64,000 nt of DNA. It comes from Sandaracinus amylolyticus. Lineage in GTDB: Bacteria; Myxococcota_A; Polyangia; Polyangiales; Sandaracinaceae. This document shows positions 20,366-21,795 of this stretch, piece after piece; within the stretch, counting starts at the first letter, position 1; every line of letters starts with the position of its first letter. The notes under the pieces were generated by a model. It saw only the letters and a list, made by a program, of their open reading frames with translations. It ran no database searches and had not been told where the DNA came from. A program made the position numbers and the translations under genes. The DNA is taken from NCBI RefSeq assembly GCF_000737325.1, contig NZ_CP011125.1, positions 620,001 to 684,000 on the forward strand, written 5' to 3'.

Positions 20366-20438
20366 GCCCAGGTAGCTCAGTTGGTAGAGCAGGGGATTGA
20401 AAATCCCCGTGTCGGCAGTTCGATTCTGTCCCTGGGCA
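20366..20438 (+). tRNA. tRNA-Phe (GAA)
   Basis: This is a 73-nt cloverleaf. The acceptor stem GCCCAGG pairs with CCTGGGC and the discriminator is A. The D arm is GCTC...GAGC, the anticodon stem GGGGA/TCCCC with loop TTGAAAA (anticodon GAA), and the T arm GGCAG-TTCGATT-CTGTC. CCA is not encoded. A convergent recombinase gene ends inside it at 20377, which marks the tRNA as an integration target. Confidence 0.96.
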
Positions 20439-21795
20439 CTTCATCAGCGACCCGCGCCGCTTCAGGAATCGCGGGGACCGCAGCCAGAGTCGGCATCGAG
20501 CCCGTCCCACTTGCCGTCCCGTTTCCGCCCTCCAGGCGGGAGACCGGGGGTGGACGGAGCTCCGGGATGGCTTCGTCGAGCGGTCGCAGCGCTCCGAGGT
20601 CGAGCTCGGCGAACTGCCGCGCGGTTCGCCGGTAGTGGTTGATCATCACGCTCGACTTGTGACCGGTGCGGTCGGCAACCCAGGTCTCGCTCTTGCCGTT
20701 GGCGAGGCTCACGGTGACGAACGTGGCGCGAAGGTCGTGTAGCCGGATCGGCTGCCGGACGTCGGAGCGCTCGAACAGCTCAGGGCGAACGACACCGGCG
20801 CTGCGGAGATGCTCGCGGAAGCGCTCCACGATGCGCCCGTCACCTTCGTCGATCTCCTCTCCGTCCCCGACGTTGAGGAACACACGCTCATGAGGCTCGG
20901 GGTTGCCGCGCAGGACCTTGTACGCCGCCAGAGCGCGGGTGACGCCGCGGTCGAGCGCCCAGGCGCGCGCATCGTCGGTCTTGTTGTGGTCGAGGCGGAT
21001 GGCGCCGCGTTCGAGATCGAGATCGCGCCACGTGAGCCCGGTTGCCTCGGAGCGGCGCGTTCCCTCTCGGTCGAGGAAGCCGTAGAGCAGCCGATGCGCC
21101 AGGTCGATATGCGTCGCCCCGAGCAGCCTGGAGTCCTCGTCCGGGTAGAGGAACGTCATCGCCTTCCGCGGGCCGATCTTCGGCAGGTACCCCTTCGGAA
21201 GCGGGTTCGCGGGAATGATGCGACCGGGGAACGCAGCGAGCGTAAGCACGCGGCTCATGACTTGTGCGACGTGGCGCCGGGTCGCGCGCGAGAGCGCGTC
21301 GGGCAGGGCGCTCATCACCATGTCGGCGTGCTCGAGGGTGAACTCGCGTAGCGGCACAGAGCCGACGAGCGGGTAGACGTACGTCGTGAGCCGCGCGGAA
21401 TCGTGCTTGTGGTCCTTCTGCGGTACGTGGTCGGGGTACCGCTTCGCGAGCTTTCCGCTCGTCCATTGCTCGCCGAACTCGCGGTAGGTCACGAACGTCG
21501 AGACCGGGGCCGCATCGCCCGAGCACAGACGGTTCGCTGCCTCGACTACGTCTTGGAGCGCCTTCCCCTCGCGAGTCGCCGCGCGCTCGAGAAGCGGCAT
21601 CGCCACGTCGGCGCGACCTGCTGCCGTGAGACGCGTCGCGAGGTCTGCGAGGAGACTCGAACGCTCGCGGGCCTTCGCGTCGTCGTCCGGCTTGCAGGTC
21701 GCAAGGATGAGCTCGGGGCGCTTCTCTCCCAGCGTGACCCGCGCCCGCCAGCGCCCATCACGGAAACGAACCGAGCCTGTCGGTCTACGAGCCAT
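20377..21795 (-). CDS. tyrosine recombinase (site-specific integrase)
   Basis: A 472-residue phage-type integrase. N-terminal part: SVRFRDGRWRARVTLGEK, an AP2-like arm-binding segment. Core: SAM-like domain around RYPDH...LREFTLEHADMVMSALP. Catalytic residues visible are Arg in EGTRRSEATGLTWRDL, the HxxR box RLHDLRATFVTV, and GHKSSVMINHYRR, which supplies the late His and the nucleophilic Tyr. The last 20 or so residues (DRIELPTRGFSIPCSTN) are antisense of tRNA-Phe and the stop lies at 20377-20379 inside it. Integration therefore restored or extended the reading frame through the attachment site. It is probably the enzyme that inserted this island. Confidence 0.95.
   Translation of the reverse strand: MARRPTGSVRFRDGRWRARVTLGEKRPELILATCKPDDDAKARERSSLLADLATRLTAAGRADVAMPLLERAATREGKALQDVVEAANRLCSGDAAPVSTFVTYREFGEQWTSGKLAKRYPDHVPQKDHKHDSARLTTYVYPLVGSVPLREFTLEHADMVMSALPDALSRATRRHVAQVMSRVLTLAAFPGRIIPANPLPKGYLPKIGPRKAMTFLYPDEDSRLLGATHIDLAHRLLYGFLDREGTRRSEATGLTWRDLDLERGAIRLDHNKTDDARAWALDRGVTRALAAYKVLRGNPEPHERVFLNVGDGEEIDEGDGRIVERFREHLRSAGVVRPELFERSDVRQPIRLHDLRATFVTVSLANGKSETWVADRTGHKSSVMINHYRRTARQFAELDLGALRPLDEAIPELRPPPVSRLEGGNGTASGTGSMPTLAAVPAIPEAARVADEVPRDRIELPTRGFSIPCSTN

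Follow-up and report, generated by a model that had tools for sequence, protein, structure and literature searches.

Integration at tRNA-Phe is predicted to detach a conserved C-terminal tail from the integrase of a genomic island in Sandaracinus amylolyticus

We consider it likely that an 85.2-kb genomic island of Sandaracinus amylolyticus carries its attachment (att) site inside its own integrase gene, that the excised circle encodes a 572-amino-acid (aa) form of the enzyme, and that integration detaches the C-terminal tail of this form, which excision restores. The left part of the island lies in the window, a stretch of 64,000 nucleotides of contig NZ_CP011125.1 (positions 620,001 to 684,000; contig C1 of source genome G000), with the following features:

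20366-20439, plus strand: tRNA-Phe (GAA), found by ARAGORN; the reconstituted target, with its 5' part from the host and its 3' part from the island
20377-21795, minus strand: tyrosine integrase, integrated form, 472 aa, ATG start (Pfam PF00589, E 3.2e-15; PHROG phrog_1, E 4.3e-28)
20377-20394, minus strand: host-supplied end of the integrated ORF, residues PCSTN and the TGA stop
20395-20439, no strand: att core (attL), 45 bp, with an identical attR at G000:C1:725514-725558
20395-64000, no strand: left part of the 85.2-kb island, from the att copies, the GC drop, and the comparison with genome G002
21866-22345, minus strand: small ORF just upstream of int (HTH_17, E 0.12, below the Pfam cut-off)

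The Phage_integrase domain (PF00589) of the integrase scored 56.8 bits, above the curated cut-off of 27.1, and motifs assigned R247, H353, R356, H379, and Y388 as the catalytic residues. The initial annotation had proposed that the last 20 or so residues of this protein are encoded by antisense tRNA, that its stop lies at 20377, and that the attachment site is part of the integrase gene. Indeed, the integrase ORF and tRNA-Phe overlap by 63 nt, corresponding to 20 residues and a TGA stop, the latter antisense to tRNA-Phe positions 12 to 14, and the att core lies inside the ORF. Fifteen of the 20 tRNA-encoded residues fall within the 45-bp core common to both ends and would be unchanged by excision; the host side contributes no more than the 5 terminal residues and the stop. 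The small ORF at 21866-22345 had no further match in Pfam, PHROGs, or NCBIfam scans; from its very weak helix-turn-helix resemblance, we would guess at a possible excisionase.

A matching attR had been anticipated beyond the 64-kb window. When we searched the source genome with a 201-bp junction query, we found outside the window an exact 45-bp copy (100% identical) of tRNA-Phe positions 30 to 74 at G000:C1:725514-725558 (L006:3514-3558). Since exact 45-bp copies bound it, the island extends over C1:640395-725558. The GC content falls from 0.74 (16001-20000) to 0.67 (20001-24000) at tRNA-Phe. Another genome of the same genus, G002 (C1:7185001-7200000, L146), has the same left flank as the window (92.9% over 2,369 bp) and an intact tRNA-Phe, at which another insertion of ∼4.4 kb is found. 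This insertion is followed by a displaced 43-bp tRNA copy (positions 32 to 74), behind which 51 bp are 88% identical to the sequence following attR in the window's genome, and more of the right flank is found further along in the same direction. Integrase and tail models recognized no integrase or tail in the ∼4.4-kb insertion. Since G002 shows both a displaced tRNA copy and the shared right flank, the 45-bp attR copy is not a chance match; the comparison therefore fixes the right boundary of the island and places the exchange near the anticodon loop. The element is thus a tRNA-targeting genomic island, with an intact tRNA at one end, a displaced identical fragment at the other, and an integrase within.

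In the predicted circle, the integrase frame crosses the att core and yields a protein of 572 aa, with 467 shared and 105 new residues. The initial annotation had foreseen that the C terminus would change on excision, and this part is borne out by the prediction from both ends; the change expected was small, whereas 5 host-derived residues and the stop would be exchanged for 105 island-encoded residues (L006:3199-3513, minus strand). The exchange point lies 79 residues past Y388 and well past an IPEL motif at 410, so the catalytic domain is left untouched; a tailless relative in the phage record KX853514 nearly ends at the IPEL motif. The GC contents of the three codon positions in the tail (0.71, 0.66, and 0.84) are similar to those in the integrase (0.73, 0.50, and 0.83). 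While the island is inserted, the frame of the tail meets no stop for 155 codons in total, running through the displaced tRNA piece and on into the chromosome. We also translated 13 relatives of the integrase, 8 of which overlap a tRNA gene in antisense (three Leu, two Glu, and one each of Phe, Lys, and Gly); the other five had no tRNA in the fetched stretch. Because their ORFs run antisense into different tRNA genes, these 8 relatives differ in their C termini, and an identical C terminus regardless of the insertion site was not seen.

The 105-residue tail, used as a query, matched in 8 of 56 genomes. An alignment of ten tails contained 9 invariant columns at 32 to 42% identity to the window's tail, except for a close copy in L052 (75%). 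With a model built from this alignment, tails were found in 43 of the 183 genomes of the source's order, with up to 27 matches per genome, and in 21 of 377 genomes sampled across the phylum, of which 17 belong to the order and 4, with weak matches (E 4.6e-5 to 9.6e-4), lie outside it. Nine tail loci found among 84,980 species genomes all bore titles of myxobacteria or Deltaproteobacteria. The tail alignment retrieved two loci from IMG/VR, in which single-sequence queries with the integrase or the tail found no relatives, and no model of Pfam, PHROGs, or NCBIfam matched the tail. AlphaFold2 predicted two helices (residues 42 to 60 and 63 to 77) with pLDDT values of ∼90 to 98 and disorder in the rest (mean pLDDT, 73.2). 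A Foldseek search with this model gave no match at E ≤ 0.001 (best E, 1.9); the predicted hairpin may be TPR-like. Between the two good tail copies of G000, dN/dS was 0.40 in the tail frame and 0.27 in its hairpin part, values that come from one pair with 33 changes, compared with 0.66 to 1.6 in the other five frames of the same pair.

The second well-kept copy, L052:6472-6793 (G000:C1:8286472-8286793), lies far from the tRNA-Phe at 640 kb, beside only 16 bp of tRNA-Phe core, and no integrase of this kind was found nearby. This copy (C1:8286488) was considered as the partner of an integrase at 8322261 and rejected, as that integrase ends at tRNA-Glu, in contrast to the short tRNA-Phe core by the tail. 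The island also has a frame-shifted tail relic 2.4 kb inward from its right end (L006:938-1258; G000:C1:722901-723123), which may point to an earlier element inserted there. In G039, which has two tRNA-Phe copies, the models used matched no integrase or tail.

We then surveyed 12 loci with tRNAs, namely the window and 11 others, for a second tRNA copy. A displaced tRNA piece adjoined a tail at 10 of the 12 loci, and at 6 of these 10 the predicted circle fuses integrase and tail in one frame. For each of the six, the tRNA, the residues of the integrated form and those replacing them, the T-arm phase, and the state of the integrase are as follows:

Window: tRNA-Phe; 5 residues replaced by 105; T-arm phase 1; full-length integrase
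G007: tRNA-Leu; 14 residues replaced by 109; T-arm phase 1; full-length integrase
G097: tRNA-Leu; 305 residues replaced by 111; T-arm phase 1; full-length integrase
G100: tRNA-Leu; 8 residues replaced by 92; T-arm phase 0; in-frame stop further upstream
G150: tRNA-Asp; 9 residues replaced by 81; T-arm phase 2; C-terminal integrase part only
G087: tRNA-Asp; 4 residues replaced by 105; T-arm phase 0; C-terminal integrase part only

A full-length integrase is thus present at three of the six fusing loci (window, G007, and G097). With three T-arm phases in use, a single fixed tRNA frame does not explain the frame match. Among the loci where an integrase frame reaches the tRNA, 6 of 7 fuse, for which a hand calculation gave a probability of ∼0.007 at a one-in-three chance per locus. 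Integration does not always truncate the protein, since the integrated ORF of G097 continues for 305 residues. The cores fall into two classes, one of 45 to 57 bp reaching the anticodon loop (window, G007, and G097) and one of 23 to 26 bp on the T-arm side (G100, G150, and G087). No fusion was restored at the four remaining loci: in G005, integrase remnant and tail are in different frames; G062 has an integrase remnant that does not join; G177 lacks an integrase domain; and in G040, a stop interrupts the core and the intact tRNA has no such integrase beside it.

In a larger set of 58 tails from the fetched stretches, which includes the ten used for building the model and leaves out matches with a domain E value above 1e-5, a tRNA piece was present within 400 nt upstream of 20 tails, compared with 22 of 1,160 random stretches from the same loci. 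The other 38 had no piece recognizable with the library of 48 tRNAs, and because the library comprised only 48 tRNAs, 20 of 58 is a lower bound, although some of these tails may lie in other contexts. Sixteen of the 20 pieces are antisense; the four in sense are three 5' pieces of tRNA-Leu and one intact tRNA-His. In 15 of the 20 cases, no stop interrupts the tail frame across the tRNA piece. A T-arm motif was found at 25 of the 58 tails and in 6.4% of random 300-mers; this result was set aside in favor of the library comparison, since one alternative of the motif also matches linker codons in L110, L111, and L113. In a frame control on the same flawed motif, the tail frame was open in 21 of 25 cases, and the other frames were open in 10 and 16.

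Integrase and tail are also found uninterrupted, in single ORFs at three loci:

L057: 609 aa, tail found with the 105-residue query, integrase identified by Pfam, antisense T-arm motif between the two parts
L111: 684 aa, 5' piece of tRNA-Leu in sense between the two parts
L150: 565 aa, in the 10.2 kb examined of a 67.6-kb contig from IMG/VR, antisense T-arm motif between the two parts

ARAGORN detected no intact tRNA in the stretches examined at these loci, and the three ORFs may represent free forms, tandem junctions, or relics. In all, an integrase is directly followed by a tail at 8 loci: the frame is open in the 3 cases above, one in-frame stop separates the two parts in 2 (L060 and L119), and the frames differ in 3 (L098, L110, and L116). 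The integrase that carries this tail in L150 is from another subfamily. Between integrase and tail, L110, L111, and L119 have a 5' piece of tRNA-Leu in sense, which suggests a group using the 5' half of the target.

Sequence comparison documents the att repeats, a frame that is open and conserved, the family of tails, the recurrence of the layout, and the uninterrupted ORFs, and the mechanism that we propose builds on these as follows. In the circle, the integrase would consist of the catalytic domain, a linker, 15 residues encoded by the antisense 3' part of the tRNA, and the tail with its two-helix hairpin. Recombination at tRNA-Phe would leave the tail at the far end (attR), and the integrase at attL would end in 5 codons plus a stop that the host supplies from the D-arm region of the tRNA, its catalytic domain remaining whole. 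Excision, probably with a helper, would regain the long form. The tail may act within the integrase, its hairpin making contacts between protomers or on attP DNA; the long form could be adapted to inserting the circle, and the short form could be less active, active in another way, or dependent on a helper. Insertion would then work as a lock that is reset by excision. We infer this functional half from phage Mx8 and from C-terminal regulation in other tyrosine recombinases, among them Cre, XerCD, and lambda Int, in which segments behind the catalytic tyrosine have a regulatory role.

The ORF at attR might instead be a separate gene, for example for a small regulator or a directionality factor, whose alignment with the integrase frame is accidental. 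The 155 open codons of the integrated tail frame would allow translation from an upstream start, and the large-genome group G174-G178 has many tail-like matches without an integrase or a tRNA piece in the fetched stretch. However, accident accounts poorly for a frame match at six of the seven loci that reach the tRNA, in three phases, for the uninterrupted fusions in L057, L111, and L150, and for the 8 integrase domains with a tail directly downstream, and we regard a separate gene as unlikely. We find it slightly less probable still that the exchange is real but neutral. Integrases that use tRNA 3' ends often enter their target, so the tail could be dispensable and conserved only by common descent; the relative in KX853514, 47% identical, ends soon after its catalytic domain and has no tail, as does L011, and the tails of several islands are frame-shifted. 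In contrast, the low dN/dS of the tail, which is lowest in the hairpin, the invariant columns retained by such divergent tails, and the presence of the same tail on another integrase subfamily in L150 argue against neutrality.

An equally improbable reading is that several accreted elements make up the 85-kb stretch and that this integrase does not use the 45-bp copies as its att sites. The frame-shifted relic inside the right end and the second tyrosine recombinase at 44280-45473 would fit such a history, but the exact copy abuts the best tail match, this tail is in frame with the integrase, and G002 has the chromosomal right flank directly behind its displaced tRNA copy. We thus favor detachment of the tail by integration and its restoration by excision.

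This principle has been known since the work on the Myxococcus phage Mx8, whose integrase (IntP) already has attP in int and an exchanged C terminus: according to the available text of PMC4701971 and PMC6070905, integration replaces 112 C-terminal residues by 13, compared with the 105 predicted to be exchanged for 5 in the window. An effect on activity, which the initial annotation had considered possible, is reported for Mx8. In the portions available, PMC4701971 describes the integrated form of the Mx8 integrase as less active, whereas PMC6070905 describes it as not inactivated and changed in specificity, so that the two accounts differ on the direction of the effect. Both integrases match the broad PHROG phrog_1, but they are not closely related in sequence: a search of a phage collection containing Mx8 with the window's integrase returned no Myxococcus record among 62 matches (E ≤ 1e-3). 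The last 118 residues of the Mx8 integrase did not match the tail model (0.1 bits), and the Mx8 tail as a query matched none of the 377 genomes, a query that is uninformative as a test. Unlike the phage Mx8, the carrier here is a genomic island without a recognized phage particle module among 22 proteins scanned in addition to the integrase. The archaeal SSV-type ("suicidal") integrases also have attP in the integrase gene and an altered gene on integration, as far as the accessible text of PMC8371274 goes; however, their gene is broken into int(N) and int(C), which sets the catalytic part apart, whereas here the catalytic domain would stay whole and only a C-terminal domain would be exchanged. 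The streptococcal integrative elements (ICEs) in rumA, in which att lies in the integrase gene and the C terminus changes in length and sequence (available text of PMC4701971), differ in using a serine recombinase and a protein-coding target instead of a tyrosine recombinase and a tRNA. The island resembles Islander-type islands, as outlined in the available part of PMC4383910, in its restored tRNA, displaced 3' fragment, and internal integrase, and departs from them in that the integrase frame continues past the site into a conserved tail at the far end. What is new, as judged from sequence, is a tail family that appears unrelated to that of Mx8, spread over several tRNA targets and shared between integrase subfamilies. 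A literature search whose coverage left out most subscription journals returned no paper describing such a family, which is weak evidence of novelty.

We see an even chance that many myxobacterial islands and phages share this modular, unnamed tail, which integration detaches and excision re-attaches, forming a self-resetting switch in the integrase gene. The tail would be mobile between integrase subfamilies, the tRNA would provide linker codons and often an early stop, and the system would be a bacterial counterpart of the suicidal integrases. Should the direction or strength of recombination depend on the tail, integration would edit the enzyme and excision would undo the edit, with no separate regulator. 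An integrase annotated from an integrated island would lack its real C terminus, which matters for annotation and for the mining of integrases as tools, the subject of PMC12884075 in its available text. Since the tail marks attR ends, it may also make myxobacterial islands easier to delimit.

Besides the integrase, 22 island proteins were scanned, and no phage particle module was recognized among them. Directly behind the second tyrosine recombinase (44280-45473; Pfam E 1.4e-17) lies a 593-aa ORF that matched no Pfam or PHROGs model (region 42502-45473). Genes for a VgrG-like protein, a TPR protein, and an Rhs/PAAR protein with an SsdA-like deaminase end (L004:80-9183) look like a type VI secretion cargo set. 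A CD-NTase with an AGS_C sensor domain, a large ResIII helicase, and a DNA methylase (L004:17393-18760 and L005:1-6973) are likely defense genes. Finally, ParB-like, GP88-like, and RadC-like proteins are encoded within the island at 32401-35107 and 54386-54985 of the window.
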